Shown one piece after another: positions 9,130-39,630 of a stretch of DNA of 42,631 nt (positions are counted from its first letter, which is position 1; the number at the start of each line of letters is the position of its first letter). The DNA is from Actinobacteria bacterium HGW-Actinobacteria-6 (lineage in GTDB: Bacteria > Actinomycetota > Coriobacteriia > Anaerosomatales > Anaerosomataceae). Both the position numbers and the translations under genes were made by a program. Under the pieces are notes generated by a model. That model did no database searches and had not been told where the DNA came from. It saw only the letters and a list, made by a program, of their open reading frames with translations. The stretch covers positions 1 through 42,631 of the forward strand of contig PHEU01000015.1 of the NCBI GenBank assembly GCA_002841295.1, in the 5' to 3' direction.

Positions 9130-9143
9130 GGGAAGGGGTTGCG

Positions 9144-11169: not shown

Positions 11170-11365
11170 CTTCCGAGAGGAGATCCTGAAGCTCACCGAA
11201 GGCCACCGCACCCACACCGGTGAGGCCCAGGTCACCACCACCGAGCCAGACATTCGACACGCGGACGAACCTGAGCGTCCTCGACCCAAGCCGCGCAAGC
11301 GAGCTACCCTGACGCCGAAAGCGAAACTCTCGCCGGAGACGAAGGATCCCAGCCCGGAGCATTAG
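11162..11365 (+). CDS. Small basic hypothetical protein
   Basis: 67 residues from ATG 11162, overlapping the previous stop by 8 bp and preceded by GGAGG. Charged and apparently disordered; the C-terminal third is Lys/Arg/Pro-rich (RPRPKPRKRATLTPKAKL). It may bind nucleic acid or be a structural accessory. No family recognised. Confidence 0.55.
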   Translation: MGSFREEILKLTEGHRTHTGEAQVTTTEPDIRHADEPERPRPKPRKRATLTPKAKLSPETKDPSPEH

Positions 11366-11389
11366 ACGGGCCACCAGCTGAGGATCTGG

Positions 11390-11442
11390 GATGGGCCACC
11401 ACGAGAGGCGATTACTCAATCGACCTCGGAAGGTGGCCCATC
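11390..11442 (+). promoter_or_regulatory. Hairpin covering the capsid ribosome-binding site
   Basis: Arms 11390-11400 (GATGGGCCACC) and 11432-11442 (GGTGGCCCATC) are perfect complements with a 31-base loop. The right arm contains most of the GGAAGGTGG Shine-Dalgarno stretch, and the capsid ATG is at 11446. A further GGGCCACC copy is at 11369-11376. The fold would hide the capsid ribosome-binding site or act as a weak terminator/attenuator between early head genes and capsid. Confidence 0.5.
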
Positions 11443-11445
11443 GCC

Positions 11446-12759: not shown

Positions 12760-12779
12760 GGCCAGAGCGAGCGCCGATC

Positions 12780-13121
12780 ATGGCTCTGACGACTGCCACT
12801 GAGGTGGCCGTGGTTCTCAAGTATGAGAACGCGGCCACCGATGTGGCGTTCCTGAAGGCGTACGCCGCGGCCGAGCGGTGGATCGCTCGCCGGTGCCGGT
12901 GGAAGACCGAGACGGTCACCGAGGACGGCGAGGAGATCACTCGCCCGGTCGACGTCGAGGACCTGGTGCAAGCGGTGATCCTCCTCACCGGCCGGTATCT
13001 TGCCCGCCGCAACTCCCCCGATGGCCTGCTGAACATGGGCGAGCTGGGCGTGATGCGAGTGGGCGCGATCGACCGGGACGTGCAGAGCCTGACCGGCCCC
13101 TACCGAAAGATCATGGTCTGA
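12780..13121 (+). CDS. Head-tail connector protein
   Basis: 113 residues from ATG 12780. The helical pattern FLKAYAAAERWIARRCRWK, VDVEDLVQAVILLTGRYLARR and a short beta end (GVMRVGAIDRDVQSLTGPYR) fit gp6/gp15-type adaptors that sit below the portal. The position directly after capsid agrees. The stop overlaps the next start by 1 bp. Confidence 0.75.
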   Translation: MALTTATEVAVVLKYENAATDVAFLKAYAAAERWIARRCRWKTETVTEDGEEITRPVDVEDLVQAVILLTGRYLARRNSPDGLLNMGELGVMRVGAIDRDVQSLTGPYRKIMV

Positions 13122-13525
13122 TGCTCGACCTAGCAGCGGTCCGCGGTCACCTCGGCGATGGGCTGGACGACGCGAAGGACACGACTGAGGTCGAGCGGGT
13201 GTACCGGCGAGCGATCACCGGCACCTTCCAGGCGCCGGCGGTCGTCATCGGACAGCCGTCCTTGGAGCAGCCGAACGTGCAGCCGTGCCTCGATCAGTGG
13301 TCGTGGCCGGTGCATGTGGTGGTCGACCGGCCGGGAGCTGACGAGGACGCCACGCAGGCCAAGTTGGAGGGCTGCTGGGTCAAGGTCTACGCCGAGCTGG
13401 CCGGCCTGGTGGACGGCATCCCGGGCGCGGTGATGGCGCGAATCATGCGGGCCGAGTTCGGCTCGCTGCTGGTGGGTGGGGTCAGCTTCCCCGCCTACGA
13501 AATCACTCTCGAAATCGTTGGGTAA
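13121..13525 (+). CDS. Head-tail joining or tail terminator protein
   Basis: 134 residues from ATG 13121. Alpha/beta pattern with QPNVQPCLDQWSWPVHVVVD, KLEGCWVKVYAELAGLVDGI and a closing strand SFPAYEITLEIVG, as in small tail-terminator/completion proteins that precede the tail tube. The assignment rests mainly on order and size. Confidence 0.65.
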   Translation: MLDLAAVRGHLGDGLDDAKDTTEVERVYRRAITGTFQAPAVVIGQPSLEQPNVQPCLDQWSWPVHVVVDRPGADEDATQAKLEGCWVKVYAELAGLVDGIPGAVMARIMRAEFGSLLVGGVSFPAYEITLEIVG

Positions 13526-13537
13526 GGAGAACCCGAA

Positions 13538-13972
13538 ATGGCATTCAAGCCGTATTTCATGAAGGACATCGATCTGATTATCGGTGACGAGGCGGACACC
13601 ACGCCGAACTTCAAGTGCCAGGCCAAGAGCTGCAAGCTCACCCCGGACGTCTCGATCCAGCGCGTCGAGACCGCGTGCCCGAACGGTCAGTTCGCCGACA
13701 TGGGCAACCCGGTGTGGACCGCTGAAGTCGGCTACCTGTTCGGTGAGGACGACGGCGTGGGTACCGCGGCGACCGTGCTGGCCGACTACCTGCTGGCGCA
13801 CATGGGCGAGACCCAGACGCTCACCTTCCGGCCGCACGCCGGCGGGAAGGGATACCAGGCGTCGATCAAGATCGTGCCCGGCATCATCGGCGGCGAGTAC
13901 GGCAGCTTCTCCGAGCAGTCGGTGAGCCTGCCGATCCTGGGCCAGCCGGTCCCGATCGCTGCGGTGCCCTGA
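13538..13972 (+). CDS. Major tail tube protein
   Basis: 144 residues from ATG 13538 with a good AAGGAG site. Beta-rich throughout (DIDLIIGDEADT, FKCQAKSCKLTPD, VWTAEVGYLFGEDDG, QTLTFRPHAGG, EQSVSLPILGQPVPI), as in siphovirus tail tubes. It precedes the frameshifted chaperones and the tape measure, the standard order. Two conserved-looking Cys occur in the N-terminal third. Confidence 0.8.
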   Translation: MAFKPYFMKDIDLIIGDEADTTPNFKCQAKSCKLTPDVSIQRVETACPNGQFADMGNPVWTAEVGYLFGEDDGVGTAATVLADYLLAHMGETQTLTFRPHAGGKGYQASIKIVPGIIGGEYGSFSEQSVSLPILGQPVPIAAVP

Positions 13973-13973
13973 T

Positions 13974-14279
13974 ATGTCGTGGACCAAGAGCGGCACGGTC
14001 AACACGTTCCGCGTCACCTTCCATGACGGTGCGGAGCCGCTGGTCGTCCGCAACCGGGTCGGCGATGCGGTGGCGTGGGAGCGGAAGTCGAAGACGCAGC
14101 TGGCCGATGGGGTCTCGACCGAGGGTCTGATCTGGATCGCGTGGAAGGCGGCCCGGTCGCAGGAACTCACTGACGAACCGACGTTCGACCAGTTCCTGGC
14201 CCGCGTCGATGACGTCGAGATCCAGGGCGAGGGTGAGGACCTGGAGGACCCTACGAACCCGGATCCCTCGGCGAGCTGA
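13974..14279 (+). CDS. Tail assembly chaperone, short (zero-frame) form
   Basis: 101 residues from ATG 13974. It has an N-terminal beta part (TVNTFRVTFHDGAEPLVVRN) and a helical middle (TEGLIWIAWKAARSQELTDE), then an acidic end, like lambda gpG-type chaperones that bind the tape measure. Its end overlaps a -1 frame continuation (see next entry). This form is the main product; a few per cent of ribosomes are expected to shift (family knowledge). Confidence 0.8.
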   Translation: MSWTKSGTVNTFRVTFHDGAEPLVVRNRVGDAVAWERKSKTQLADGVSTEGLIWIAWKAARSQELTDEPTFDQFLARVDDVEIQGEGEDLEDPTNPDPSAS

Positions 14280-14401
14280 TCTGCGCACTGGCGGTCAGCA
14301 CGGGCCGGCTCCCCAGCGAGTGGGAGCGCGAGGAGCCGGCCGCGATCGCTACAACGCTCAACTTGCTCGAAGAGATCCAGAGACGACAGCAGAAGGGGTG
14401 A
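13974..14401 (+). CDS. Tail assembly chaperone, -1 frameshift (G-T) form
   Basis: In the -1 frame, uninterrupted coding continues past the zero-frame stop at 14277 to TGA 14399-14401. It reads E-P-G-S-L-G-E-L-I-C-A-L-A, then RLPSEWEREEPAAIATTLNL, a typical gpT-type extension. The total is about 142 residues. The heptamers GGACCCT (14246-14252) and GAACCCG (14255-14261) both permit -1 slippage, at least at the A-site codon. No start codon precedes the extension, so frameshifting is the only sensible way to make it. Confidence 0.75.
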
Positions 14402-14406
14402 GCCCG

Positions 14407-14853
14407 GTGGAACCAATCGCGAGAATCGATGACCTGCCGGGCATGCTCAAGCGGCTGTCGGCGTTGCCGAAGACCGCCCAGGCCGAGATCCGGGCCCAGG
14501 CGCAGGCGATCGCCGATGAGGAAGCCGTGAAGATTCGTACCGCGGCGGTCGGTTCCAGCGCTCAGGCCGCCGCGGTCGCTCCGTTCATCAAGGCCCGCCG
14601 GGATCGGGTCCCGGCGATCGTCGCGGGCGGCCCGGCGAAGGCGAAGGTCTCCGGTGGCGCTACCCGTGGAGAGATCTTCTTTGGTGCCGAGTTCGGTGGC
14701 CAGGCCCGTAAGACCACGATGCAGTTCCGTCCCCACAAGGGCCGTGAGGGCTATTTCTTCTATCCGCAGCTGCGGCAGGACTCCGACCGGATGGTCGAGC
14801 GGTGGCTGGGTGTGGTTCGTGCAGTAGAGCGTGAGTGGAGTCAGCATGGCTAG
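14407..14853 (+). CDS. HK97 gp10-like minor structural protein
   Basis: 148 residues from GTG 14407 with AAGGGG upstream. The helical N-terminus (LPGMLKRLSALPKTAQAEI, QAQAIADEEAVKIRTAAV) and the segment REGYFFYPQLRQDSDRMVERW resemble gp10/neck-type proteins. In most siphoviruses this gene sits among the head-tail connectors; here it lies between the tail chaperones and the tape measure, which is odd. It may be a tail-tip completion protein instead. Confidence 0.6.
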   Translation: MEPIARIDDLPGMLKRLSALPKTAQAEIRAQAQAIADEEAVKIRTAAVGSSAQAAAVAPFIKARRDRVPAIVAGGPAKAKVSGGATRGEIFFGAEFGGQARKTTMQFRPHKGREGYFFYPQLRQDSDRMVERWLGVVRAVEREWSQHG

Positions 14854-16960
14854 CGGTGGGGCGTCGGCTGCTGTTCGGCAGCTGGTGGTGAAGTTCGTGG
14901 GCCTGGTCGACCCGACGCTGGGTAAGGCTGCGGCCACCGTGAACTCCAAGATCAAGGGCAGCGGTACTGAAGCTGGGAAGACCGCTGCGAAGACGGCCGC
15001 GATCGCTGCGGCCGCGGTGGCGGTGGCTGGCGCCGCGGTAAAGATGGGCAAGGACTCGGTCGCCGCTTTCCAGGGGGCCGCCGGCGAGGTGATCCCGTTC
15101 AAGCGGAACCTGGGCCTCACCGCCGAAGAGGCGTCGCGGCTCCGGTTCCAGCTGAAGATGAGCGGCGTCGACCTCGGTGTGGCGGGGAAGGCTGCGACGA
15201 TCTTCGCCAAGAACCTCCAGAACTGGCTCCAGAAGGACGAGGCGCTCAAAGCGACCACCGAGGCCAAGACGAAGGCGATCAAAGCCCAGATCGCGGCGCT
15301 GGAGGCGGCTGGTCCGTCGACGGCCGGCTACACCGAGAAGATGGCGGCGCTGAAGGCGAAGCTCGCCGCGGTGACCGCGCAGGGTGAGGCCAACGAGAAC
15401 GCGCTGACCAAGCTGGGTATCGCCTACTCCGACGCGGAGGGCAATGCCCGGCCGATGTCGCAGCTACTCCCGGAGATCGCTGAGAAGTTCAAGACGATGC
15501 CTGACGGGCCGGAGAAGACGGCGCTGGCTATGAAGTTGTTCGGGAAGAGCGGTGCGGCGATGCTGCCGTTCCTGAACAAGGGTGCGGCCGGGCTGGCCGA
15601 GCTGGCGGCCAAGAGCGACAAGTTCGGGGAGACGCTGACCGGTGAGAACCTCGCGGCGCTGGTGGCGTCGAAGGTGGCCCAGCGGGATTGGAACGCTGCG
15701 GTCGAGGGTTTCCAGATCCAGTTCGGAGCGAAGCTCTTGCCCCTGCTCACGACAGGTGCGACCACGATCACCGGTGTTCTGATCCCGGCGCTGAACGGGG
15801 CGGCGGCGTTCTTCCGGGATAACCAGACGGCGATCGGTACGACCGCAACTGTGGTCGGCGTGCTCACGGTCGCCTATGGCGCGTTGGTGGTGGTCCAGAA
15901 CGCTCAGGCTGCTGGCGGATTCGTGAAGTACTTGCTCACGGTCGGCCAGGCGACGAAGGCGTGGGCGATCGTCCAGGGCGTGCTCAACGTGGTCATGTCG
16001 GCCAACCCGATCGCGCTGGTGGTGATCGCGATCGCCGCCCTGGTCGCCGGGATCATCTACGCGTACAACAACTGCAAGGAGTTCCGGCAGGTCGTAGATG
16101 TGACGTTCAAGGCGATCGCGGATGCCGGGGTGTGGTTGTGGAACAACGCGCTGCAGCCGGCCCTGAAGGGCATCGTGATGGGCTTCGGGTGGGTAATGGA
16201 CGGGCTTGCCGCGTTCCTCGACGGGCTGGGGAATATCCCCGGCTTCGAGTGGGCGAAGGGTGCCGCGGCCAGCGTGCGCGATGTCGGCAAGGCCGCTCGG
16301 GATGCTGCGGACGGGATCAACCAGATCCCGATCAAGAAGAAGGTCACGGTCTCGGCTGCTGATGAGGCGTCGGCGAAGCTCGCCAACGTGAAGTCTCAGC
16401 TGGCCGAGCTGAAAGACAAGCTGATCCGGGCCAAGGCTGAGGGCGACACGGCCGAGGTCGACAAGCTGAAGAAGAAGATCGATGACCTGAAAGACAAGAA
16501 GGTCAAGCTGCAGGCCGAGGTGGAGAAGGGCACGGTGATCTCCAAGGTCAAGATCGTGGCCGGGAAGGGCAACGGAGCGGCCAAGTTCCAGATGATCGCG
16601 ATGGCCGGCGGTGGCATCCTCGGTGGCGCTGAGCGTCATGTGGCGCAGATCGCGAAGGCCGGCGCGATGAGGCTATGGGCGGAGCCCGAGACCGGTGGCG
16701 AGGGCTACGTACCGCTGGCGGCGTCCAAGCGGTCGACGTCGGTACCGGTCTGGTGGGAGATCGGCCGCCGGTTGGGTGTGGTCCAGTACGCCAACGGTGG
16801 CGTTTCTGGTGGCCAGGCGCAGCCGGCGAGCGTGTCCGAGCTGGTCGCCGCGATCCAGGCGCTGGGGTTGCTGATCACCGCGGCTCAGGAGCGGTTGGTG
16901 AACGAAACTCTCCGAGCTGCCAGCTCTGGTTCCCCGCGGCCGATTGTGAGGTTGGGCTGA
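14846..16960 (+). CDS. Tape measure protein
   Basis: 704 residues from ATG 14846, overlapping the previous stop. Ala/Lys-rich helices in the first third (RFQLKMSGVDLGVAGKAATI; several Ala-rich runs) and two hydrophobic stretches near residues 335-400 (TVVGVLTVAYGALVVV; ANPIALVVIAIAALVAGI) are typical. A coiled coil follows around residues 500-560 (KSQLAELKDKLIRAKAEG, KLKKKIDDLKDKKVKLQ). The length sets the tail length; about 0.15 nm per residue suggests a tail near 105 nm. Confidence 0.92.
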   Translation: MASGGASAAVRQLVVKFVGLVDPTLGKAAATVNSKIKGSGTEAGKTAAKTAAIAAAAVAVAGAAVKMGKDSVAAFQGAAGEVIPFKRNLGLTAEEASRLRFQLKMSGVDLGVAGKAATIFAKNLQNWLQKDEALKATTEAKTKAIKAQIAALEAAGPSTAGYTEKMAALKAKLAAVTAQGEANENALTKLGIAYSDAEGNARPMSQLLPEIAEKFKTMPDGPEKTALAMKLFGKSGAAMLPFLNKGAAGLAELAAKSDKFGETLTGENLAALVASKVAQRDWNAAVEGFQIQFGAKLLPLLTTGATTITGVLIPALNGAAAFFRDNQTAIGTTATVVGVLTVAYGALVVVQNAQAAGGFVKYLLTVGQATKAWAIVQGVLNVVMSANPIALVVIAIAALVAGIIYAYNNCKEFRQVVDVTFKAIADAGVWLWNNALQPALKGIVMGFGWVMDGLAAFLDGLGNIPGFEWAKGAAASVRDVGKAARDAADGINQIPIKKKVTVSAADEASAKLANVKSQLAELKDKLIRAKAEGDTAEVDKLKKKIDDLKDKKVKLQAEVEKGTVISKVKIVAGKGNGAAKFQMIAMAGGGILGGAERHVAQIAKAGAMRLWAEPETGGEGYVPLAASKRSTSVPVWWEIGRRLGVVQYANGGVSGGQAQPASVSELVAAIQALGLLITAAQERLVNETLRAASSGSPRPIVRLG

Positions 16961-17745
16961 TGGTCACGGTCGTAGACATCACTGCTGCCGTTCGGACGTC
17001 GGCGCGGGCCGCAGCGCTGTCGATCACGGTCACCGGTGCTGCCGTTGGGGAGACCATGACGGTGTGGCGTCGGGTCGGCGCCGCGGCGTTGGTGCAGGTG
17101 ATGGGTGCGGTGTCGGTCCCGGCCGCGTCACGGGTCGTCATCGATCCGGAGGCGCCGCTGAACCGTGCGGCGTCTTGGGTGGTGACGACGTCGACCGGTG
17201 CGTCGGACGAGAGCGACCAACTCACTGTGACGTCACAGCTTTCCGCGATCGCTGATCCGGTGTCCGGCCTGCTCGCCGACATTGCGGTTATCACCAGGGA
17301 CACGGCTTCGCGTGCCAATCGGGTGACGGTGGTTCAGGTGGAGGGTGACCCGACACCGTGGGTGGTGGCCGATGTACCGATGAACGCTCGCGTTCCGCTG
17401 CGGCTATTGGCGACGTCGGCGACCGCTACCGCGAAGGTTTGGCAGGTATTGGCCACCGGCGAGCCCGTCCTGCTGCGCTGTGCATGTGGTCAGCACGCCG
17501 ACGTGTGGGTGCAGCCGGTCGGTGATGCGGTGTCGTCGGAGCCGCTGGTGGTCACCGGCGGCGACCTGACGGCATTCGACCTGGGTGAGTGTGTCGTGTT
17601 CGCCGGCAATCCGGATCTGGCGTCGTCGGCTCGATCGACCACTCTGGGCGACGTCGACGCTGCGGTCACTCCGCACACTCTGGGTGCTATCGCTGCGCGG
17701 TGGGCGACCTTGGGCGAGATCGCCGCGGCTGATTTGGGGGCGTGA
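16960..17745 (+). CDS. Minor tail protein (distal tail/tip)
   Basis: 261 residues from ATG 16960, overlapping the tape measure stop by 1 bp. Beta-rich, with many V/T strands (VTVVDITAAVRTSARAAALS, AALVQVMGAVSVPAASRVVI). It directly follows the tape measure, where distal tail proteins lie. No catalytic motif seen; the assignment is by position and fold character. Confidence 0.6.
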   Translation: MVTVVDITAAVRTSARAAALSITVTGAAVGETMTVWRRVGAAALVQVMGAVSVPAASRVVIDPEAPLNRAASWVVTTSTGASDESDQLTVTSQLSAIADPVSGLLADIAVITRDTASRANRVTVVQVEGDPTPWVVADVPMNARVPLRLLATSATATAKVWQVLATGEPVLLRCACGQHADVWVQPVGDAVSSEPLVVTGGDLTAFDLGECVVFAGNPDLASSARSTTLGDVDAAVTPHTLGAIAARWATLGEIAAADLGA

Positions 17746-18752
17746 TGGCCGAGCTGCAGCTGACCTCCTGGCTCGGCGGGACCGCGCTGGGGAAGATCCC
17801 GGTGGTGGCCGGGTCGTGGAAGGTGACGAATCAGGCCGGTGTGCAGGTGCCGGGAACGATCGAGTTCTCGGTTCCTGCGGTGCCGGAGTGGATCCCGACG
17901 ACCGATCGGCACCCGTTGGCCGCGATGGGTCAGCGGGTGTGGGCACAGGTCGACCAGGGTGACGGTCTGCGTACGTGGGGATGGTTCCGGCTGAACCGTC
18001 CGAAGTTGTCCGGGCCGGTTGTCCAGTGCAGCGGTGTCGGGCTGTTGCGCGAGGTGGAGAGGTTCCGGTTCCCGACGTCAATGCAGGTGGCGGTGGGTAC
18101 GTCTCGCTCGCAGCTGGTGCGGGATCTGTTGGCCGGGATCATGCCGGTGGTGATCTCAGGTGTCGCGGACTCGGCGACATCGGCGCTGATCACATGGGAG
18201 GAATCCCGGATATCGGCGTTGTGGGAGGTCCTGGAGTCGTGGCCTGCGCGGGGCGAGGTGCGTGAACAGGTGTTGTGGGTGTTGCCGGCGTGGAACGACG
18301 CATCGCCGGGCGATCCGACCGTGAGCCTGGTCGATGGCGTTGGCGGCTCACTGGTTGACCTAGAGCCGGTGGTGGATGACTCCGACCCGTACAACGGCTA
18401 CGTCGTGTCGACCGTGCCATCTGGTGAGGAGGCGGCGGTGGTGCGCATGTGGACGATGCCTGATGGGCCGATGGCGTGGGGCGGGCCGTACGGCTACAAC
18501 CCGGGCTTCCACTCTTCACCGCTGAACCCGGCCGACCCCACCAAGTTGCTGGCCATCGCGGAGTCGATGACTCGGCGTGAGGTGTCTGCGGGTCGGACTG
18601 TGACGTTCATCGCGCGGCCGTCGTTGCGGGCCGAGGTTGGGCAGGTTGCGCGGGTGCGGTCGACGCGGAAGGGCGTGAGTGGTGTGGGTCGGATCACCGC
18701 GTTGGAGCTGACGCGCGGGGCGCTGTCGGGAACGGTGGCGATGCTGTCATGA
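17745..18752 (+). CDS. Tail hub or baseplate-type minor tail protein
   Basis: 335 residues from ATG 17745; GTG 17742 is an alternative that overlaps the previous stop. Motifs include GKIPVVAGSWKVTNQAGVQV, VPGTIEFSVPAVPEWIP and GRTVTFIARPSLRAEVGQVA. This resembles the DUF5047-like hub proteins of actinophage tails, with a repeating beta pattern. It is probably part of the tail tip that contacts the cell envelope. Confidence 0.6.
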   Translation: MAELQLTSWLGGTALGKIPVVAGSWKVTNQAGVQVPGTIEFSVPAVPEWIPTTDRHPLAAMGQRVWAQVDQGDGLRTWGWFRLNRPKLSGPVVQCSGVGLLREVERFRFPTSMQVAVGTSRSQLVRDLLAGIMPVVISGVADSATSALITWEESRISALWEVLESWPARGEVREQVLWVLPAWNDASPGDPTVSLVDGVGGSLVDLEPVVDDSDPYNGYVVSTVPSGEEAAVVRMWTMPDGPMAWGGPYGYNPGFHSSPLNPADPTKLLAIAESMTRREVSAGRTVTFIARPSLRAEVGQVARVRSTRKGVSGVGRITALELTRGALSGTVAMLS

Positions 18753-19987: not shown

Positions 19988-20392
19988 ATGGCTGATTACG
20001 CACTTGCCGTCGCTGCGGTGTTGACGGCTGCAGCATCACTGACCGGAGCGGTCTTCGCGTGGGTGAAGTGGCAGCGCGAGATCCGCGCCGTCCGCGCAGA
20101 ACTGAGCCCATCCGATCCGGCCGAGCAGTTACCGACGCGAGCGATCCCGGACGGGACGCCACCCAACCCCGGTACCACCCGCGATGTCGTGGATTCCAGC
20201 CACCTGCTGTTGCTGCAGATCGCGCAGCAGGTCGAGGGCCTGATCGTGAAGGACGGCGAGATCAAGAAGTGGGGCGAGGAAGAGCACGCCCGCCTCGATG
20301 TCCGAATCGACGGCCTCACCGAAGACACCGATTACCGGATCACCGCGCTCGATGAGCGCGTGACCAACCTCGAAAAGGAGACCGAACGATGA
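19988..20392 (+). CDS. Membrane protein with coiled-coil tail, lysis-module type
   Basis: 134 residues. One N-terminal transmembrane segment (ALAVAAVLTAAASLTGAVFAW) is followed by a basic stretch, a Pro-rich linker and a C-terminal charged coiled coil (RLDVRIDGLTEDTDYRI, LDERVTNLEKETER). The single helix plus coiled coil before the endolysin suits a holin-associated or spanin-like factor, but this is by position. It overlaps the endolysin by 4 bp. Confidence 0.5.
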   Translation: MADYALAVAAVLTAAASLTGAVFAWVKWQREIRAVRAELSPSDPAEQLPTRAIPDGTPPNPGTTRDVVDSSHLLLLQIAQQVEGLIVKDGEIKKWGEEEHARLDVRIDGLTEDTDYRITALDERVTNLEKETER

Positions 20393-21567
20393 TCACGACC
20401 AAGGGAATTCAGGCGCAGTGTGACGCGCTGGTCGCCGCACGTCCCCGCATCCGCTACACCCAGGACCTGAAGGGACGGCGCACCGGTGTCGACCTGAAGC
20501 GGCGCCGCTGGGTACCCGGAGGGAAGCTCGATTGCTCGCTGTCCAGCGCAGCGATCAACTACCTCGCCGGCGCACCGGTGAACATGGCCAACCCCCTGTG
20601 GAACGTCAACATCGTCTCCCGCCTGGTCGCAACCGGCCTCTACAAGCGGATCAGCGTCCGGCAGTACAAGACGCTGAAGGCGCTCACCGCGGTCCTCAAG
20701 CCGGGCGATACGATGCGCGGCCCGGGGCACGTCATCGTGGTCCGCGACGGGAAGCGCTGGGTCTCGTGGCAGGGCGCCGTAAACGGCTACCGGGCGCCGT
20801 ACATGCGTTCACGCGGCTGGACCGACGTGGCCCGGCTGATCAGCCCCGAGGAGTTCCAGGGCCGCATCCTGGCCGCCAAGTCCAGGGGCAAGAGCTACGC
20901 CAAACCGATGGCCTTGCTGCAGCAGCGCTCGGCGTTCGACGGGCCGCGGTGGGCCGAGTTCCTCGCCGCGTGGGATCGCGCCGACAAGGGCATGGCGATC
21001 ACCTGGGAGCCGGCCGCCCTGGTCGCCGACGTGTACGTCGTCCTGGGTGCCGCGCTGAAGGCGGACGGGTCGGTCCTGGAGCAGTTCCGGCGCCGCCTGG
21101 TGCTCGCGAAGGCGGCACTGGATCGCTACCCGGCCGCGAAGGTGCTGATCACCGGCGGGAAGGCGCGCAACGGCGTCACCGAGGCTGCGGCCGGGAAGGC
21201 GTGGATGGTGTGCGCCGGTATCGATCCGGGCCGGGTCCTCACTGAGGAGTCGGCCAGCTCGACCATCGGGAACGCGCTCGGTTCGCTCCCGGTGCTGCGC
21301 CGTGCTGGTGTCACCACCTACGCGCTGGTGTCGGACGCGTCGCACCTGCGGCGGGCTCAGGTCGAGTTCTGGGCGGCTCAGCTGCAGATCGAGACCGGCG
21401 AGAACGTGCAACTCAAGCTCCGGTCGGTCGGCGTGCTCGGGTTCAACAACTACGGCCAGAAGGCGGTCGCAACCGCGGCACCGGTGACCGCGCTCACCAG
21501 GAAGGCGATCGTCACCGAGGTGGCGACTCTGTTGCGGCTCACGCAGCAGTACAACCAGGCCCTGTAG
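20389..21567 (+). CDS. Endolysin: Cys/His peptidase domain fused to DUF218 (YdcF/SanA-like) domain
   Basis: 392 residues. The N-terminal part (about 1-150) looks like an NlpC/P60- or CHAP-type peptidase: Cys in GGKLDCSLSSAAINYL (C49) and His in MRGPGHVIVVRDG (H114), each at the expected place. Residues about 212-350 form a DUF218 domain: DVYVVLGAALKADGS, RRLVLAKAALDRYPAAKVLI, LITGG, TEA, the segment EESASSTIGNALGSLPV, and VSDASHLRRAQVEFW. DUF218 proteins (SanA, ElyC, YdcF) act in envelope biology. Fusion to a lysin is uncommon in my memory. It lies upstream of the holin. Confidence 0.7.
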   Translation: MITTKGIQAQCDALVAARPRIRYTQDLKGRRTGVDLKRRRWVPGGKLDCSLSSAAINYLAGAPVNMANPLWNVNIVSRLVATGLYKRISVRQYKTLKALTAVLKPGDTMRGPGHVIVVRDGKRWVSWQGAVNGYRAPYMRSRGWTDVARLISPEEFQGRILAAKSRGKSYAKPMALLQQRSAFDGPRWAEFLAAWDRADKGMAITWEPAALVADVYVVLGAALKADGSVLEQFRRRLVLAKAALDRYPAAKVLITGGKARNGVTEAAAGKAWMVCAGIDPGRVLTEESASSTIGNALGSLPVLRRAGVTTYALVSDASHLRRAQVEFWAAQLQIETGENVQLKLRSVGVLGFNNYGQKAVATAAPVTALTRKAIVTEVATLLRLTQQYNQAL

Positions 21568-21590: not shown

Positions 21591-22019
21591 ATGGGTGGAA
21601 TCGTGCTCGGCTCCACGTTCGATTGGGCGTGGACCGTGGTGCTGGGGTTGGTGGCGCTGCCGCTGATCTCGCTGGTGGTGCAGTCGCATTGGTCGGCGAC
21701 GGCGAAGCGGGTCACCGTGGTGGCCGTGTCGGCGGTGCTGGCGGTGCTGTACCTGCTGGCGTCCGGGAAGATCGACGGGGTGCCACCCGACGCGGTGGCC
21801 CAGCTGGTGCGCTGGTTCGTGATCTTCGCCGGCATCGTGGTGGTGACGCAGGCGATCTACAACATGGTGAAGGGGCCGCTGGCCAAGTGGGAGTCGGTAA
21901 CCGATATCACGCCGGCGCCGGTCGAGGTCCCTGACGAGGATCCGGACGCGACGGCTGAACCGGATCCGGCCGAGGGTGAGGAAGATCCCCCGGTCGAGGA
22001 TGATCCCGCGAACGGTTAG
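21591..22019 (+). CDS. Holin
   Basis: 142 residues from ATG 21591 with GGAGAAGGGAG upstream. Three hydrophobic segments (WTVVLGLVALPLISLVV; VTVVAVSAVLAVLYLLA; LVRWFVIFAGIVVVTQA) are followed by an acidic, Pro-rich tail (EVPDEDPDATAEPDPAEG). Size and topology fit a phage holin that controls lysis timing. It is next to the endolysin. Confidence 0.75.
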   Translation: MGGIVLGSTFDWAWTVVLGLVALPLISLVVQSHWSATAKRVTVVAVSAVLAVLYLLASGKIDGVPPDAVAQLVRWFVIFAGIVVVTQAIYNMVKGPLAKWESVTDITPAPVEVPDEDPDATAEPDPAEGEEDPPVEDDPANG

Positions 22020-22063: not shown

Positions 22064-22885
22064 TCATGCTGCAGCGTTGACCGCGGCTCTCAGCGCTTCG
22101 TCTGGGATCTCCACGTAGATCTGAGTGGTCGCGACCGACGCGTGGCCGAGCACCTCCTGGACGGCACGGATATCGCCGGTGCGGGAGTACGCCGTGGTAG
22201 CCCAGCGGTGCCGCAGGGTGTGCCCGGTCCAGTGAGCCGGCAGCGCTCGGGAGAGAAGTACTCCGACGTGACCAGCTGATAGGTGTCCGTCGACTTGGCC
22301 GGGGAATGCCCAGCCACGCGGGAGCGACCGGAGCCGAGCAGCAATGTCGTCGGCCAAGGGAATGATCCGATCCCGGCGGCCCTTTCCATGAACCACCAGT
22401 GACCAGCCGGCCAAATCCTCGATCAGGTCGTCGCTGTGCACAACCGCGATTTCTCCCCGGCGGAGCGCTTCACGGTATCCGAGAAGAATCATGAGCTGAG
22501 TCCGGGAATCGGAGGTGGCTAGAGCCATCTGAATGGCGCCTTCGGGAGCGGGGTAACGGACTCGCTTTCGGGACGATCTGATGCGCGCCAGGAGGCGGGA
22601 GGGGTCGGTGGCGGTGAGGCCGGATGCGTAGGCCCAGCCGTAGAAGCTGCGGAGCGCGGAGAGCTGCGATCGCCGGGTCTCTGTGGACCAATCTGGGCGG
22701 GCGAGCCAGTTGGTCAGGTGGGTGGCCGTTACGGCGAGCAGATCGGGGTGGTGTTCTGCGAATCGGCGCATCTGGTAGGTGCGGAGCCGGATCGTTTGGG
22801 GTGATAGGTCGGAGGCTATTAGCCAGTTTCTCCATGCGGTGAGTGGGTTCATGGCTGAACGGTTTAGAGCAATGACGTTGGTCAT
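22064..22885 (-). CDS. int: Tyrosine-type phage integrase
   Basis: 273 residues. A SAM-like core-binding domain fills the first 100 residues (TIRLRTYQMRRFAEHHPDLL; LSALRSFYGWAYASGL). The catalytic domain has R142 (EALRRGEI), K168 (HGKGRRDR), H222 and R225 (HTLRHRWAT), H248 (LGHAS) and the nucleophile Y257 (TTQIYVEI). All six conserved residues are present, so it is likely active. It sits at the prophage end beside attR and inserts into tRNA-Asn. It is transcribed towards the late genes from the attR side. Confidence 0.95.
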   Translation of the reverse strand: MTNVIALNRSAMNPLTAWRNWLIASDLSPQTIRLRTYQMRRFAEHHPDLLAVTATHLTNWLARPDWSTETRRSQLSALRSFYGWAYASGLTATDPSRLLARIRSSRKRVRYPAPEGAIQMALATSDSRTQLMILLGYREALRRGEIAVVHSDDLIEDLAGWSLVVHGKGRRDRIIPLADDIAARLRSLPRGWAFPGQVDGHLSAGHVGVLLSRALPAHWTGHTLRHRWATTAYSRTGDIRAVQEVLGHASVATTQIYVEIPDEALRAAVNAAA

Positions 22886-22962: not shown

Positions 22963-23000
22963 AATCCGCAGGTTCCTGGTTCGAGTCCAGGTGGGGGAGC
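22963..23000 (+). other. attR: 3' half of tRNA-Asn
   Basis: Bases 22963-23000 read as the end of a tRNA: AATCCGC (last anticodon-loop bases and 3' anticodon stem), variable loop, T-arm CCTGG-TTCGAGT-CCAGG (22975-22991), 3' acceptor TGGGGGA (22992-22998) and discriminator G. The pattern matches tRNA-Asn. No 5' half precedes it; instead the phage sequence ends in ...CAGTG. This is the duplicated att core on the host side. No CCA is encoded. Confidence 0.85.
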
Positions 23001-23010
23001 TTTCGTCAGG

Positions 23011-23048
23011 GCCCCGCAACGAGGAGCAACTCCTCGCGCGGGGCTTTT
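23011..23048 (+). terminator. Terminator of the tRNA-Asn gene
   Basis: Arms 23011-23017 (GCCCCGC) and 23038-23044 (GCGGGGC), with an inner stem GAGGAG/CTCCTC (23021-23026 / 23030-23035), are followed by TTTT. Separated from its promoter by the prophage, it shows that the original tRNA unit ended here. Confidence 0.8.
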
Positions 23049-23316
23049 CTGTATCCCTCCCCAGACCCGTCGAACGGGCAGCACGGACCACCCATCGCTT
23101 CGGGAAGCCACCCGCTCGCCGGGTACTGCTGTCACAGCGTGAGTCGCCACCACTGGAAGGCGATCACCCTCGCCGCCTCCGGCCAACCAGTCGGGTGGCC
23201 TCATACAGCACATCGCAGCATTCGAGCCGGTGACGCCTACGTATCTGTGGGATCCCCTTGCGACTTCCCGTAACACCACGTCGAAGGCGGTCGTTTTCTC
23301 AATTGGAAAGGTGGTC
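23049..23316. other. Non-coding stretch after attR
   Basis: About 270 bp of host sequence before the anti-sigma-like gene. The open reading frames in it look like shadow frames. A plausible Shine-Dalgarno (GGAAAGGTGG) occurs at its end. No promoter is obvious enough to call; an ECF-dependent promoter for the downstream pair may be present. Confidence 0.4.
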
Positions 23317-23997
23317 ATGGGAATCGACGACATGCAGGAGCCCTGGTTGGTACTGCGGGGCGTGCCGAACGACGATCCGGCCCTGGGGGAGGTCTCCGCC
23401 TTCCTGGAAAGGGTGGACACGGCGTATGCCGGGCTGTCCACCGCCCACTGCGAGACCGGGCACCTGGCCGCTGTCACGCAGGAGGCCCGCACCATTCGGA
23501 ACGGGCTTCGGACCAGTAGGAGGAAGACGATGAAGGAACTGTTCAGCTTCAAGACCCACCGACTGCTCGTCGGCTCGGTGATGGCCGCTCTGATCATGCT
23601 CAGCGGCGTCGGTGTTGCCAGCGCCATGGGCGGTGGCCCGATCGCCCAGTTGTGGCCGGCTGCCCCGCTCGACACCACGTCACCCGAGCCCGCGGCGACC
23701 ACCCCGCTCAGCGACCCGACCCCGTCCGCCCCGGCGACTGCGAGCGACGAGGATGCCGACGATCAGAGCGAGGAAGCCGACCACCAGAGCGAGGAAGCCG
23801 ACGATCAGAACGATGACGCCGACGACCAGCGTGAAGAGGCCGACCACGAGAGTGACGACGCCGACGACGACCAGAGCGAACACGCTGAGAGCCAGAGCGA
23901 CGACGATGAGAACGTCAGCAGCCCCAGCAGCGATGGCAGCCACGACAGTGGCGATGACGAAGGTGACGAGAGCAGCGACGATGACACCGAGGACTGA
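23317..23997 (+). CDS. Anti-sigma-like membrane protein with acidic repeat tail
   Basis: 226 residues from ATG 23317; ATG 23530, with a strong AGGAGG, is an alternative shorter start. Residues about 1-70 are cytoplasmic and helical (FLERVDTAYAGLSTAHCETG, HLAAVTQEARTIRN). One membrane segment (LVGSVMAALIMLSGVGVASA, about 84-103) follows. The outer part is almost entirely Asp, Glu, Ser and Gln, with five heptads of type D-Q-S-E-E-A-D. The layout and the neighbouring ECF sigma gene suggest an anti-sigma factor with an acidic, possibly cation-binding sensor tail. That function is inferred. Confidence 0.6.
   Translation: MGIDDMQEPWLVLRGVPNDDPALGEVSAFLERVDTAYAGLSTAHCETGHLAAVTQEARTIRNGLRTSRRKTMKELFSFKTHRLLVGSVMAALIMLSGVGVASAMGGGPIAQLWPAAPLDTTSPEPAATTPLSDPTPSAPATASDEDADDQSEEADHQSEEADDQNDDADDQREEADHESDDADDDQSEHAESQSDDDENVSSPSSDGSHDSGDDEGDESSDDDTED
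23761..23865 (+). repeat. Five 21-bp repeats coding acidic heptads
   Basis: Units start at 23761, 23782, 23803, 23824 and 23845. Each encodes seven residues of the type (D/H)-(Q/E)-x-(E/D)-(E/D)-A-D. Wobble positions vary, so the protein pattern is conserved better than the DNA. Confidence 0.85.
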
Positions 23998-24064
23998 GGT
24001 CCACCGGGTCACTTCGCGGACCCAGTCGGCTTCCCGGGCCCACTCCTAGCTGTGGTGTGAGCGC

Positions 24065-24649
24065 GTGTCCCCCGACGCACCATTCCCACAGGTCCTCTCG
24101 GCTGCGGCCGAGGGGGCCGAGTGGGCGTGGGCCCGGTTGTACCGCACGCACGCGCCACATCTCCTGCGGTTCCTGGCCAGCCAGGGTGCCCGTGACCCCG
24201 AAGACCTCCTGGCCGAGGTGTTCATCCAAATCGTCCGCAAGCTCCACACCTTCACCGGCGAGGAGGGCGACTTCCGGGCCTGGGCGTTCAGGATCGCCCG
24301 CCGTCGCCTGATTGACGCCTGGCGCGCCGAGCAACGTCGCCCGGCCACCACGCAGGAGGCCACCGATGCCTCCCACCACAGCTGGCACGCGCCGCCCGCA
24401 GACCGGGATATCGACCAACGCACCGCCGTCGAAGACATCCTGGCGACCCTTACCGTCGATCAGCGCGCCGTGCTCGTGCTGCGACACGTTCACCAGTTCA
24501 GCGTTGACGAAACTGCGGCGATCCTCGACAAGACCCCCGGTGCCGTCCGCGTCCTTCAGCACCGCGCCGTTCGGTCACTGCGGCGAACCCTCGCCACGCC
24601 GACCGGCTGGGCTGCGATGGCACCCGAGCCCGGGTTGGCCCAGGCATAA
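24065..24649 (+). CDS. ECF-type RNA polymerase sigma factor
   Basis: 194 residues from GTG 24065. Region 2 is seen in ARLYRTHAPHLLRFLASQG, DPEDLLAEVFIQIVRKLHTF and FRAWAFRIARRRLIDAWR. Region 4 is seen in RAVLVLRHVHQFSVDETAAI and KTPGAVRVLQHRAVRSLRR (a helix-turn-helix). It directs RNA polymerase to a specific promoter set and is likely held by the membrane protein encoded just upstream. Having the candidate anti-sigma gene first is the reverse of the common order. Confidence 0.9.
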   Translation: MSPDAPFPQVLSAAAEGAEWAWARLYRTHAPHLLRFLASQGARDPEDLLAEVFIQIVRKLHTFTGEEGDFRAWAFRIARRRLIDAWRAEQRRPATTQEATDASHHSWHAPPADRDIDQRTAVEDILATLTVDQRAVLVLRHVHQFSVDETAAILDKTPGAVRVLQHRAVRSLRRTLATPTGWAAMAPEPGLAQA

Positions 24650-24650
24650 C

Positions 24651-25652
24651 TCACAGCCATAGCCCCGCAAGCCAACCGGTGGCGACAGCGGTGACGAACA
24701 AGGTGCCGATAACCAGAGCAACGATGCGCCAGCGGGCGATCACGAGCATCCCGCTGATTGCCCCCATGCTGGTGCCCGCCCCGGTGATCAGGAAGGCGAT
24801 GCCGGCGCCCGGGGCCATGCCGCCGTGCAGGAGGCTCGCGACCAGAGGCAGCGAGGCATCGGTGTTGAGGTAGACCGGGATACCCAGGATGGCGGCCAGC
24901 GGAACCGACCAGATGGGATTCCCTGCGCCGAGCCAGTCGGTGATCAGGCCGGCGGGCAGGAGCCGGATCACCAGGTAGCCAAGAGTGGCGAAGGCCAGGA
25001 AGAAGCCCGCCAGCTTGCGGCCGTTGGTGAGCAGGGCGCCGCCGAACTGACGTAGCTTCGACGGCTCCACCGTCTGCACGGTCGGCTTCTCGATCACGGT
25101 CAGCAGCCGCATCCCTCCCGATGTGGTCATCGGGTCATCGCTAGCGCCAGCTGCGTCGCAGGTCGGGCCACAGGCGGACGCAGGTTCGGCGCTCGCCATC
25201 CGGGCTTGACCGTCGAGGAGGCCGTGACGCTCAAGCCACCAGGCCGCGCCTCCCCCGATCAAACCGACGGCGATCGCGGCGACGAAGAACGTGGTGGCGA
25301 AGGCGGGCCCGAACAGGCCCACGGACAAGACGTACTCCTCTGGACTGGTCAGCGGGGAGGACGCCATGAACGCCACGATCGGCGCCCAGGGCACCGCCGA
25401 AGCCATCGCGCCGAGGACGACGGCGGTGGTGCCACAGGAACAGAAGGGGGTGAGCGCGCCGAGAGCGACCGCGCCGAGGATCGCAACCCCCGTGCGACGC
25501 CGCAGCCACGTCGCCAGTCGTTCCTGCTGTACGAACACCTGGACGGCCGAGGCGATCACGACGCTGGCGAGCAGGAACGGCCAGTTGTGGACGATGGTGG
25601 TCCAGACATCGCCGGCCACGGTGGCGGTGAGGGTGGCGAGGTAGTCGATCAC
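24651..25652 (-). CDS. ArsP/DUF318-type permease
   Basis: 333 residues from GTG 25652, chosen because AGGAGT lies 5 bases upstream; ATG 25670 is in frame but lacks a ribosome site. Eight or so membrane segments in two halves carry the family motifs ALTPFCSCGTTAVVLGAM and YLNTDASLPLVASLLHGGM, then GAGTSMGAISG. A soluble loop (about residues 140-200) has a Cys pair in ACGPTCDAAG. Relatives export organoarsenicals or move metal ions. It is divergent from an ArsR gene, so it is probably metal- or arsenic-responsive. Confidence 0.85.
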   Translation of the reverse strand: MIDYLATLTATVAGDVWTTIVHNWPFLLASVVIASAVQVFVQQERLATWLRRRTGVAILGAVALGALTPFCSCGTTAVVLGAMASAVPWAPIVAFMASSPLTSPEEYVLSVGLFGPAFATTFFVAAIAVGLIGGGAAWWLERHGLLDGQARMASAEPASACGPTCDAAGASDDPMTTSGGMRLLTVIEKPTVQTVEPSKLRQFGGALLTNGRKLAGFFLAFATLGYLVIRLLPAGLITDWLGAGNPIWSVPLAAILGIPVYLNTDASLPLVASLLHGGMAPGAGIAFLITGAGTSMGAISGMLVIARWRIVALVIGTLFVTAVATGWLAGLWL

Positions 25653-25667
25653 GACGCACTCCTGTTT

Positions 25668-25722
25668 CATAGATGACTATCGATTGTTTGATGGTGATCG
25701 ATATGATAGACATACATCTATG
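25668..25722. promoter_or_regulatory. Palindromic operators between permease and arsR-like gene
   Basis: Two nested inverted repeats occur: CATAGATG (25668-25675) with CATCTATG (25715-25722), and TATCGAT (25678-25684) with ATCGATA (25697-25703). The stretch is unusually AT-rich for this genome. ArsR-family repressors bind AT-rich imperfect palindromes between divergent target genes, so these are likely the operators and both promoters overlap them. Confidence 0.7.
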
Positions 25723-26112
25723 AGTAATCAAGAGGTGTCGAAACGACTCCCCCAGGTCAGTGATCTGTGCTGCTCGCCGGTCCTGCAGGCGCCACTCGGA
25801 GCTGACGATGCGCTGACCTTGTCGACGGCGTTGAAGGCTCTCGCCGACCCAGCGCGACTGCGACTCCTGAGCCTGATCCGATCCGCCGACGGCGCCCGGG
25901 CCACCACGGCAGCGCTGGCCGATCAGGTGCAGCTGAGCCAACCGACAGTCACCCACCACCTCGGTGCCTTGCTGGACGCGGGCTTCCTGGAGCGTGAGCG
26001 CGAGGGGCGGCAAACCTGGTACTGGGTGAACCCTGACGGGCTGACGGCCATCCAACAGCTTCTCGATCCGGCACCGGCCCGGCATCCGTTGACGGTCGAA
26101 GCGTCGACCTAA
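25720..26112 (+). CDS. ArsR-family transcriptional regulator
   Basis: 130 residues from ATG 25720, which is within the outer operator arm. The winged-helix core is clear: LSTALKALADPARLRLLSLI, ALADQVQLSQPTVTHHLGAL, then FLEREREGRQTWYWVNPDGL. The usual C-x-C of helix 3 in ArsR is absent; instead an N-terminal Cys pair (LCCSPVLQ) is present, so metal(loid) sensing may use that site. It probably represses the divergent permease and itself. Confidence 0.88.
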   Translation: MSNQEVSKRLPQVSDLCCSPVLQAPLGADDALTLSTALKALADPARLRLLSLIRSADGARATTAALADQVQLSQPTVTHHLGALLDAGFLEREREGRQTWYWVNPDGLTAIQQLLDPAPARHPLTVEAST

Positions 26113-26213
26113 GCCGAAGACCAGGTGCGAGCACCCGCCTCGCTCACCCCACCGACACTGCAGTCTGCCGAAGTTGCCTGCGCACGCCCGCGTCCACCGC
26201 TAGCCTCGTTGAG

Positions 26214-27449
26214 GTGAGCACCCCCCGTAGCGAGCGTCTCGAGACGAACCGCCCCCAGCGCCATCGGCGCCAGCCGCTGCCCCGGCGCACCCAGTTGCTC
26301 ACCATCGGCGTGATCGCGCTGATCGTCGCCCTGACCGGTGGCGTGGCCTGGGTCTACTCCCTGGTGCCCGGCCAGCGAACCTGCCCGGTCAGCACTGCCG
26401 CCGCGATCGTGCCCGACAGCGGCGTGCTGTTCGGCGTGAATCTGGATTGGCAGACCGAGAACCTGACCCAGTACGGCGACTCGCTCAGGCATCCGCCGGC
26501 GGTCGCCACCCAGTTCTCCGACCTTCCCTACGATGCCCAGCACTGGGATTGGATCGCCTCGGCTGCCGTTCAGGCCCGCTCGGCCAACAGTGTGCTGTTG
26601 CTCACTCTTGAACCGAACGAGGGACTGGCTGCGGTCACCGACGAGGTGGTGTCGCGCCTGGTGACCGATCTGCGCGGACTCAACGATCAGGGCGTTCCGA
26701 TCGTGCTGCGGTTCGCCCACGAGATGAACGGCACCTGGTACGCCTGGAGCCAGCAGCCGACCGCCTACATCGCGACCTTCCGGAAGGTGTCCGCGGCCGT
26801 CCATCAGGGCGCCCCGGGGACGGCGATGATGTGGGCGCCGAATTACGGCGGCGGCTATCCCTTCGCGGGTGGCGCCTACCTGGCCAAGCCAGGAACAAAG
26901 AACTTCGCCATCCTGGACACCAACCACGACGGAGTCTTGTCGATGGCCGATGATCCCTACCTTCCCTACTACCCCGGCGACGACGCGGTCGATTGGGTCG
27001 GGATGTCGGTGTACCACTGGGGAAACAAGCACCCGTGGGGCGCGAATGCCATCCCCGAAGACGGCAAGTTCGCCGCGATGCTCACCGGCACCTACTCCGG
27101 GTCGATCGGCAACGAGACCGCCGTCCCGGACTTCTACGCGATCTTCGCCGAACAGCACCATCGCCCGATGGCGGTCACCGAGACCGCCGCCTTCTACGCA
27201 CCCACCCGCGGCGGGGCCGACGAGCGTGCGATCAAGGAGGCCTGGTGGCGGCAGGTGTTCTCCCCCGAGATGCCCCAACGCTTCCCCATGCTGAAGATGA
27301 TCAACTGGTTCGAGTGGAACAAGTTCGAGGTCGAGGTCGGCGAGCAGGTGGACTGGCGGGCCCTAGGAACCGCAACCACCCGGGACGCCTTCGTAGCCGC
27401 ACTCCCCTCGTGGCTGCACTACGGCGGAACACCGCCGGCCTGCCCCTAG
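26214..27449 (+). CDS. Membrane-anchored GH26-like glycoside hydrolase
   Basis: 411 residues from GTG 26214. The N-terminal basic tail is followed by a membrane segment (about 29-50), then the enzyme domain. GH26 hallmarks are RFAHEMNGTWYAW (acid/base E170) and MAVTETAAFYAP (nucleophile E323). A 13-residue EF-hand-like loop, DTNHDGVLSMADD (235-247), may bind calcium. GH26 enzymes cleave beta-mannans or related beta-glucans, so this one would act on an extracellular polysaccharide, possibly its own capsule. Substrate unknown. Confidence 0.85.
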   Translation: MSTPRSERLETNRPQRHRRQPLPRRTQLLTIGVIALIVALTGGVAWVYSLVPGQRTCPVSTAAAIVPDSGVLFGVNLDWQTENLTQYGDSLRHPPAVATQFSDLPYDAQHWDWIASAAVQARSANSVLLLTLEPNEGLAAVTDEVVSRLVTDLRGLNDQGVPIVLRFAHEMNGTWYAWSQQPTAYIATFRKVSAAVHQGAPGTAMMWAPNYGGGYPFAGGAYLAKPGTKNFAILDTNHDGVLSMADDPYLPYYPGDDAVDWVGMSVYHWGNKHPWGANAIPEDGKFAAMLTGTYSGSIGNETAVPDFYAIFAEQHHRPMAVTETAAFYAPTRGGADERAIKEAWWRQVFSPEMPQRFPMLKMINWFEWNKFEVEVGEQVDWRALGTATTRDAFVAALPSWLHYGGTPPACP

Positions 27450-27489
27450 CGCCCGCCCGCGATCAGGACAGCACCACGACTAGCGCCGA

Positions 27490-28599
27490 TCAGGGCCGTC
27501 CCATGGTCGCCGCGGTCGGGCATCGGAATGTCCGGGAGGCGGCCAGCCCGACGTCGTTCATGTGGCGGACGACGATCGCCAGCGCTTCGTGCAGCGAAGT
27601 CTCGGTGTAGAGCACGTCGTGTTCGCGGCAGTACGCCCGCACCAACCGGCGAGCCTTCGCCAGGTGTGGCCGAGGCATGCTGGGGAACACGTGATGCTCG
27701 ATCTGGTAGTTGAGCCCGCCCATGAACGCCGTCATCCACCATCCGCCGGAGACATTGCGCGAGGTCAGGACCTGTTTCTCCAGGAAGTCCAGGCGGGTAT
27801 CGGCCGGCACGATCGGCATCCCGATGTGGTTCGGGGCGAAGCTGCCACCCATGTAGACCCCGAACACGGCGAGCTGGACGCCGAGGAAGGCGAAGGCCAT
27901 GCCGGGCGGCAGCAGCCAGAACAGCAGGCCCAGGTACAACACCGTGCGGAGGCCGATCATGGTCAACTCCAGCGCACGTCCCTGCAACGGACGCCGCACG
28001 AACAGGCTGCGGATCGACCGCTGATGCAGGTCGATTCCCACCAGAGGCAGCAGCGGGAAGAAGAGCCAACCCTGCCGACGGATCACCCAGCCGCGCACTC
28101 CGGTGCTGGCCGCGGCATCCTCCGCGGTGAACACCACCGTGCCCGGGTCGATATCGGGGTCCTTGCCGACCCGGTTCGGGTTTCCGTGATGCCGGGTGTG
28201 CTTGTTCATCCACCACGAGTAGCTGATCCCGACGAAGAAGGTGGACAGGATGCGTCCGACCGCGTCATTGGTCGGCCCGGAGGTGAACACCTGTCGGTGG
28301 GACGCCTCGTGTCCGAGGTAGGCGAACTGGGTGAAAATCACCCCGAGGGCGCCCGCGATCAGCAGCTCGAACCAGGAGTCCCGCAAGAGAACCACGCCCG
28401 TGACGGCGCCCGCCAGCGCCGTCACGAGCCCGCTGAACACCGCCAGATAGAACCAACGGGTGCGGTTGTTGAGCCCGGCGACGCGTGCAGCCTGGGCAAG
28501 TTCAGTGAAGCTTCGGGTCCGCTTGGTGAGTTCTTCGCGAACGGCCGCCGACCTGAGCGATCGGGAAGTGGGTGTGGCCAGTCCATCGGTTGCCATCAT
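27490..28599 (-). CDS. Fatty acid desaturase, membrane di-iron type
   Basis: 369 residues from ATG 28599 (a second ATG follows). The three histidine boxes are present: YLGHEASHRQ, KHTRHHGNPNRVG and YQIEHHVFPSMPR. There are four or more membrane segments, and the helical C-terminus has HDVLYTETSLHEAL. These enzymes add a double bond to membrane acyl chains. Extension upstream to 28689 would add a Cys pair (CGLCEE) but has no better ribosome site, so I leave it out. Confidence 0.9.
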   Translation of the reverse strand: MMATDGLATPTSRSLRSAAVREELTKRTRSFTELAQAARVAGLNNRTRWFYLAVFSGLVTALAGAVTGVVLLRDSWFELLIAGALGVIFTQFAYLGHEASHRQVFTSGPTNDAVGRILSTFFVGISYSWWMNKHTRHHGNPNRVGKDPDIDPGTVVFTAEDAAASTGVRGWVIRRQGWLFFPLLPLVGIDLHQRSIRSLFVRRPLQGRALELTMIGLRTVLYLGLLFWLLPPGMAFAFLGVQLAVFGVYMGGSFAPNHIGMPIVPADTRLDFLEKQVLTSRNVSGGWWMTAFMGGLNYQIEHHVFPSMPRPHLAKARRLVRAYCREHDVLYTETSLHEALAIVVRHMNDVGLAASRTFRCPTAATMGRP

Positions 28600-28855
28600 G
28601 GCGTCACCGTCTTCTACTGGCTCTTCACAGAGACCACAGTGGCGTCCATCGGACCAGGTGCCTTTCACAGTACGCCCCACAGTCGGCAAAAGCGCCGGAA
28701 CCGCTCCGCTGCTTTCGGCCGCAGGCGGGGCAGGTGAGCAATGCTGCTGGGATCAGGCCCCAATGGGTACTCACGGAGAGCCGGACGGGGTCTGCCGCTG
28801 ACCAGCAATGTGCGGTCCGATTAGGTGGAATGGCCGCGAGGTGAGTCAATGGACC

Positions 28856-29134
28856 ATGACTGATCTCTACACCAAGAGCGGTCGCCTCCTCCAACGAGTC
28901 GACAACCACCTCTTTTCACGCGCGGGCCGCTACCTCGGACGGGTCGTGAACCAGAAGGTGTTCGACCCGGACGGACGGTATTGCGGCACGCTGGTGGGTG
29001 ATCGGGTGGTGTATCGGACCATCGACAGCGCCGCGATCGTTGCGGCCTCCCTCGAGGTGGCACACACCGCCACCGCTCGCGCCAACATCAAGGGCTCGCC
29101 CATCTGGGGCATCGAGCCGCCGTTCGGCGACTGA
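28856..29134 (+). CDS. Small protein with beta-flower-type repeats
   Basis: 92 residues from ATG 28856 (GTG 28841 is possible). The repeats of strand-turn type (LYTKSGRLLQRVDNHLFSR, AGRYLGRVVNQKVFDPDGRY, CGTLVGDRVVYR) resemble the four-fold beta-flower fold seen in small bacterial proteins. The C-terminus is a short helix and a Gly/Pro-rich end (IWGIEPPFGD). Function unknown. Confidence 0.6.
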   Translation: MTDLYTKSGRLLQRVDNHLFSRAGRYLGRVVNQKVFDPDGRYCGTLVGDRVVYRTIDSAAIVAASLEVAHTATARANIKGSPIWGIEPPFGD

Positions 29135-29171
29135 GAATCCACCTCGCGCCGCGGAGTATCCCGCGGTGGAT

Positions 29172-31334: not shown

Positions 31335-31455
31335 CGTCTGCGGTCATCATTCCATGTCGATGCGCACAACCACCCAGAAGTGGGGGGCCTCCCCCTCTCG
31401 CGCTGCGGGGTCAACAGCGGGACAATCAGGCTTGGGTGCGATAGGAGGATTCCCT

Positions 31456-32646: not shown

Positions 32647-32656
32647 GAATCGTTGG

Positions 32657-33816: not shown

Positions 33817-33829
33817 CACACCACTAGGG

Positions 33830-39624: not shown

Positions 39625-39630
39625 CCTTGC

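Follow-up and report, generated by a model that had tools for sequence, protein, structure and literature searches.

Endolysins typically build up in the cytoplasm and are released when a holin opens the membrane, and the lysins of Gram-positive hosts usually bear their binding domains C-terminally. DUF218 proteins are widespread and shape the integrity of the cell envelope. Work on SanA and ElyC of Escherichia coli connects DUF218 with lipid-linked precursors of glycans on the outer side of the membrane (PMC12176290, PMC13251401, PMC3879167). The studies of SanA propose either an enzyme or a pocket that binds a membrane molecule, and lipid II is discussed as its substrate or ligand (PMC12176290, PMC13251401). 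The positions T125, H149, E182, R152, and L51-G52 are required for SanA function (PMC12176290, PMC13251401). The SanA and ElyC data come from Gram-negative bacteria, and no established biochemical reaction was found for any DUF218 protein in the DUF218 literature searched.

The window analyzed here is the whole stretch of 42,631 nucleotides (contig PHEU01000015.1), in which one prophage gene joins an endolysin-like N-terminal half to a DUF218 C-terminal half. This gene lies at positions 20389-21567 of the forward strand and encodes 392 amino acids, as assigned from the ORF call, Pfam, codon-position GC, and the SD motif. The earlier note had proposed this reading frame, and it was recovered at exactly that position, with 392 codons, an ATG start codon, and a good ribosome-binding site (the SD motif AAGGAG at 20375-20380, 8 bases before the start). 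GC3 is 0.89-0.94 in every segment of the frame, compared with 0.84-0.87 in the phage neighbors. Because it is uniform in both halves, the frame is one coherent coding sequence and not a frame accident. The residues and motifs that had been named (C49, H114, VVLGAALKADGS from residue 217, LITGG, ASSTIGNAL, and VSDASHLRRAQ) are all present in the translation. A helical linker (residues 153-203; 20845-20997, forward strand) with model helices at 153-165, 171-182, and 185-203 leads into a WAEFLAAW helix, which alignment shows to be kept in a Propionicimonas DUF218 protein. Synthesis of the DUF218 half alone from an internal start was considered and rejected, as no good ribosome-binding site was found at M174 or M202.

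The prophage is siphovirus-like, and the fusion gene belongs to its lysis cassette, in which hydropathy and position are the basis for naming the holin. Genes for packaging, head, and tail (terminase, portal, protease, capsid, tail, and tape measure) occupy 6202-18752 on the forward strand. The fusion gene is placed 3' of the tail genes and 5' of a holin candidate with three hydrophobic segments and an acidic C-terminal tail (21591-22019, forward strand; no family match), which supports the lysis-cassette context. The order is completed by a tyrosine integrase on the reverse strand (22064-22885; Pfam 1e-19, PHROG integrase 1.3e-34) and an attR-like tRNA 3' end (22971-23000, forward strand), which occurs once in the window and nowhere else in the assembly. 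The gene that overlaps the start of the lysin (19988-20392, forward strand) has one N-terminal TM segment and a long polar tail by hydropathy and no family match; it is possibly a second holin, a lysis accessory, or a regulator. No other lysin candidate was found among the prophage genes scanned.

The N-terminal endolysin-like domain (ELLD / NlpC-P60 type) covers residues 1-155 (20389-20853, forward strand). Pfam ELLD (PF25309) matched it with 17.2 bits, under the curated cut-off of 27, and the half is therefore called ELLD-related rather than an ELLD member. Even so, comparing profiles connects this half, as a predicted Cys/His enzyme, with endolysin-like domains of phages (NlpC/P60-type). 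Each half was aligned separately, since aligning them jointly had placed ELLD rows wrongly on DUF218. Residues 7-121 aligned with four phage or prophage ELLD domains in hhalign at 90.6% probability, with a score of 41.8 that was attained in 0 of 150 shuffles (maximum 20.1). C49, the presumed nucleophile (20533-20535, forward strand), falls on the invariant DC(S) Cys of the ELLD relatives, and H114, the presumed catalytic His (20728-20730, forward strand), on the invariant His of RHTVMV/GHAVIV. A profile that combined the N-terminal half with phage ELLD lysins, and was dominated by the lysins, matched unpermuted ELLD domains at 98.5%. These domains in turn match the PDB endolysin Lys2972 (8TW1, 5.8e-7) and NlpC/P60 endopeptidases. 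The N-terminal half itself matched neither a PHROG nor any PDB sequence, and none of the genome sets searched yielded a close relative.

The AlphaFold model of this half has a pLDDT of 47.8; it places the start of a helix next to C49 and a strand at H114. A fold search with this low-confidence model returned no fold match, and no NlpC/P60 chain was among the results. S126 and Q128 are candidates, by spacing only, for the third polar catalytic residue. The Cys/His peptidase half described in the earlier note is thus backed in part: the profile match with C49 and H114 aligned stands, but the Pfam cut-off is not reached and the model is poor. The sub-threshold ELLD score, the poor model, and the failure to assign a third catalytic residue would also suit a protein that is no wall hydrolase in its N-terminal half and by which, beside the holin, the prophage modifies the envelope or protects the host (a moron). 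We regard this as very unlikely, in view of a profile match with aligned Cys and His that no shuffle attained, a linked family that reaches a solved endolysin, and the position in a lysis cassette with no second lysin candidate among the genes scanned.

For the C-terminal half, sequence and model agree on a bona fide DUF218 domain with a predicted YdcF-type fold, and the complete DUF218 domain that had been claimed for it was borne out. Pfam DUF218 (PF02698) matches residues 214-331 (21028-21381) with E=1.5e-17 and 64.2 bits, compared with a curated cut-off of 27.6. The domain is larger than this core and extends over residues 188-392 (20950-21564, forward strand): an exported DUF218 protein of Propionicimonas can be aligned with all of this stretch, from one end to the other, with 40% identity, and both the WAEFLAAW helix and a C-terminal TEVA motif lie within the aligned part. 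AlphaFold modeling from 27 sequences gave block-mean pLDDT values of 82-98 over residues 211-330 and of about 90 or more over 221-310. The top solved match of the modeled C-terminal half is E. coli YdcF (3CA8; Z 15.4, 155 residues, rmsd 3.7), and the next match has a Z of 9.9.

The residues that matter in SanA are retained. In a direct alignment with E. coli SanA, T125, H149, E182, R152, and L51-G52 correspond to T292, H319, E377, R322, and L219-G220. Among 26 relatives, T292 (21262-21264, forward strand) is invariant in all, H319 (21343-21345, forward strand) is conserved, and E377 (21517-21519, forward strand) is D or E in 25, with a gap in the remaining one. The same 26 relatives define 25 near-invariant DUF218 columns, 20 of which are kept in the phage copy, including all the polar ones. 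The five changes are L233F, V254I, M269G, L273M, and I283V; four are conservative hydrophobic swaps and M269G is the exception.

We prefer, with a probability of about 0.5, to read the protein as a modular endolysin from a temperate actinobacteriophage, in which a peptidase or amidase half is combined with a working DUF218 domain that would act on or hold lipid-linked precursors and thereby block repair. The N-terminal Cys/His domain would be a peptidoglycan peptidase or amidase of a divergent, NlpC/P60-like (ELLD-related) kind and would cut stem peptides or cross-links. The fusion protein lacks both a signal peptide and a TM segment (its maximum hydropathy is 1.37), and holin-dependent release is proposed for this reason: the protein would accumulate in the cytoplasm and then reach the wall when the neighboring holin opens the membrane. 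The DUF218 domain may have been captured from an exported actinobacterial DUF218 protein. The nearest DUF218 relatives examined are exported proteins, which argues that the phage domain would also work outside the membrane. We infer its action on, or binding of, lipid-linked precursors by analogy, from the E. coli SanA and ElyC work and the conserved pocket residues. It would most likely work on the membrane's outer face on lipid II or another undecaprenyl-linked glycan, either modifying or holding it, and the wall would then be cut and its repair presumably blocked at the same site.

The DUF218 domain may also be a targeting module only, which would bind a lipid-linked precursor or nascent-wall glycan and anchor the peptidase at sites of wall growth without catalysis. 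Its C-terminal position is the usual site of binding domains in the lysins of Gram-positive hosts, and an inner-membrane molecule may be the ligand of the SanA pocket (PMC13251401). That every strongly conserved polar residue is retained, the proposed catalytic T/H/E among them, speaks against this role, although weakly, since a binding pocket could need them too. As a full account of the protein we hold targeting alone to be possible but somewhat doubtful; a binding-only role is nearly as likely as one in which the precursor is modified or held. At the other end, one half would cut peptidoglycan and a catalytic DUF218 half would destroy or trap the lipid-linked precursor pool, so that the damage could not be repaired. 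This dual action is proposed tentatively; if true, it would provide a soluble handle on the DUF218 reaction.

On the preferred reading of a modular endolysin, a lysin with intact essential residues points to a target that is reachable from outside the membrane. The fusion is a predicted holin-delivered and probably soluble protein in which DUF218 activity could be measured. If the DUF218 half attacks or binds lipid-linked precursors, we know of no precedent for a lysin module of this type.

Phage, plasmid, and genome collections were searched for further fusions of this kind. The tblastn searches of INPHARED yielded 4 and 3 records, none of which was recognized as a lysin; the best of them (MW462191) encodes a DUF218 protein that is exported and TPR-like. 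PLSDB yielded 36 records, none spanning 80% of the query, and in the 20 matches listed the aligned part starts no earlier than residue 150. In IMG/VR, scans with the protein and with three alignments found only one alphaproteobacterial TPR-DUF218 and a contig of 27,434 bases with an identical copy of the fusion, which was not counted as an independent instance. GTDB contigs held 80 DUF218 loci and no lysin fusion; the Propionicimonas locus (L081) was checked whole, and the upstream stretches of the others are TPR-like or other non-lysin sequence. About 2,000 genomes, sampled from the same order, class, and phylum and from other actinobacteria, yielded no DUF218-lysin fusion in scans that were pattern-based and can miss distant relatives. 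Weak N-terminal matches in these genomes were not borne out; the best one overlaps genes in other frames. The proteins matched no DUF218 family in PHROGs. No DUF218 lysin is reported in the open-access literature on DUF218 with endolysin or phage, and the two matches retrieved there were discarded because they concern DUF2184. Three INPHARED records with DUF218 genes, OR847240, OR848174, and OR846615, are unverified wastewater contigs labeled "Listeria phage" and "Enterococcus phage"; in the Listeria-labeled one the protein resembles a common membrane-anchored type of bacteria, and all of them may thus be bacterial sequence mislabeled as phage.

In the collections searched, the DUF218-lysin fusion represents a new combination of domains within a known class and is currently a singleton. 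This agrees with the statement of the earlier note that no standard lysin was known to carry DUF218 as its C-terminal part, since the same domain order was absent from the phage collections and open-access literature covered. Because the architecture is a singleton, the conservation of the fusion itself cannot be gauged. One instance with its identical contig, and none other in the genomes sampled, is what a recent accident would leave, in which the lysin gene gained a host DUF218 segment that has no role in lysis and is tolerated as the N-terminal half still works. The DUF218 copy, however, shares just 40-45% identity with the nearest relative known and still keeps its polar invariants, which points to purifying selection over a long span, although not necessarily within the fusion. 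The intact pocket makes an inert passenger less likely, and we consider the accident unlikely.

The host flank (23001-42631) and the rest of the assembly probably come from two different actinobacteria, and the contig is probably mis-binned. An MprF-like protein in the flank shares 51% identity with one from another actinobacterial family, compared with about 26% with proteins from the assembly's own order, and a transporter shows the same pattern. Tetranucleotide usage correlates at 0.30-0.47 with that of contigs sampled from this assembly and at 0.68 with the other actinobacterium. The phage host is, on this sequence evidence, probably an actinomycete. Near the left end of the prophage, a WhiB-like transcription factor gene (window 428-793; just below the Pfam cut-off, E 1.2e-4) is consistent with an actinobacterial host. 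Relatives of the genome to which the contig is assigned carry GH25-ELLD lysins, which we take to be associated with Coriobacteriia. Directly outside attR lies a gene (window 23230-23997) whose product combines a single hydrophobic segment with a long repeat tail rich in D/E/S (ADDQSEEADHQ-like); an ECF sigma factor gene (24065-24649) adjoins it.

Among known systems, ELLD (PF25309) and NlpC/P60 lysins such as Lys2972 (8TW1) align with residues 7-121 in the DC(S) Cys block, the GD...GH block, and the overall spacing, and they are phage lysins, as proposed for the fusion protein. The Pfam ELLD order is permuted, whereas in the fusion protein the Cys block comes before the GW block. The partners of the ELLD members examined are GH25, repeats, SH3-like or other domains, and none has DUF218. 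The Pfam ELLD model is also circularly permuted relative to many actinobacterial copies (L028, L022, L021, and L039), which match it at 46-173 and then 1-43; these domains are therefore split into two matches and can score below the cut-off.

The closest relative of the phage DUF218 domain that was found is the Propionicimonas protein (L081 291-1895), with 40-45% identity over the whole C-terminal half, the same WxxFL..W helix, and the same T/H/E residues. It consists of a signal peptide, DUF218, and a C-terminal bacterial Ig-like domain (Big_3_5, 1e-13), and its gene lies beside NusA-like translation genes. Exported actinobacterial DUF218 proteins, including this one and the Gordonia/Nocardia/Tsukamurella-type TPR-DUF218 proteins, have a signal peptide and a TPR-like or Ig-like partner; unlike the fusion protein, they are chromosomal and lack a hydrolase. 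E. coli SanA, ElyC, and YdcF share the DUF218 fold, and the functional residues of SanA are kept in the fusion, but SanA and ElyC are membrane-anchored regulators, YdcF is cytoplasmic (PMC12176290, PMC3879167), and none of the three has a lysin domain. The stand-alone DUF218/YdcF proteins of Synechococcus phage S-SRM01, Edafosvirus, and Marseillevirus LCMAC201 have a virus-encoded DUF218 fold in common with the fusion protein; unlike it, they are single-domain proteins of about 170 amino acids without a lysin half.
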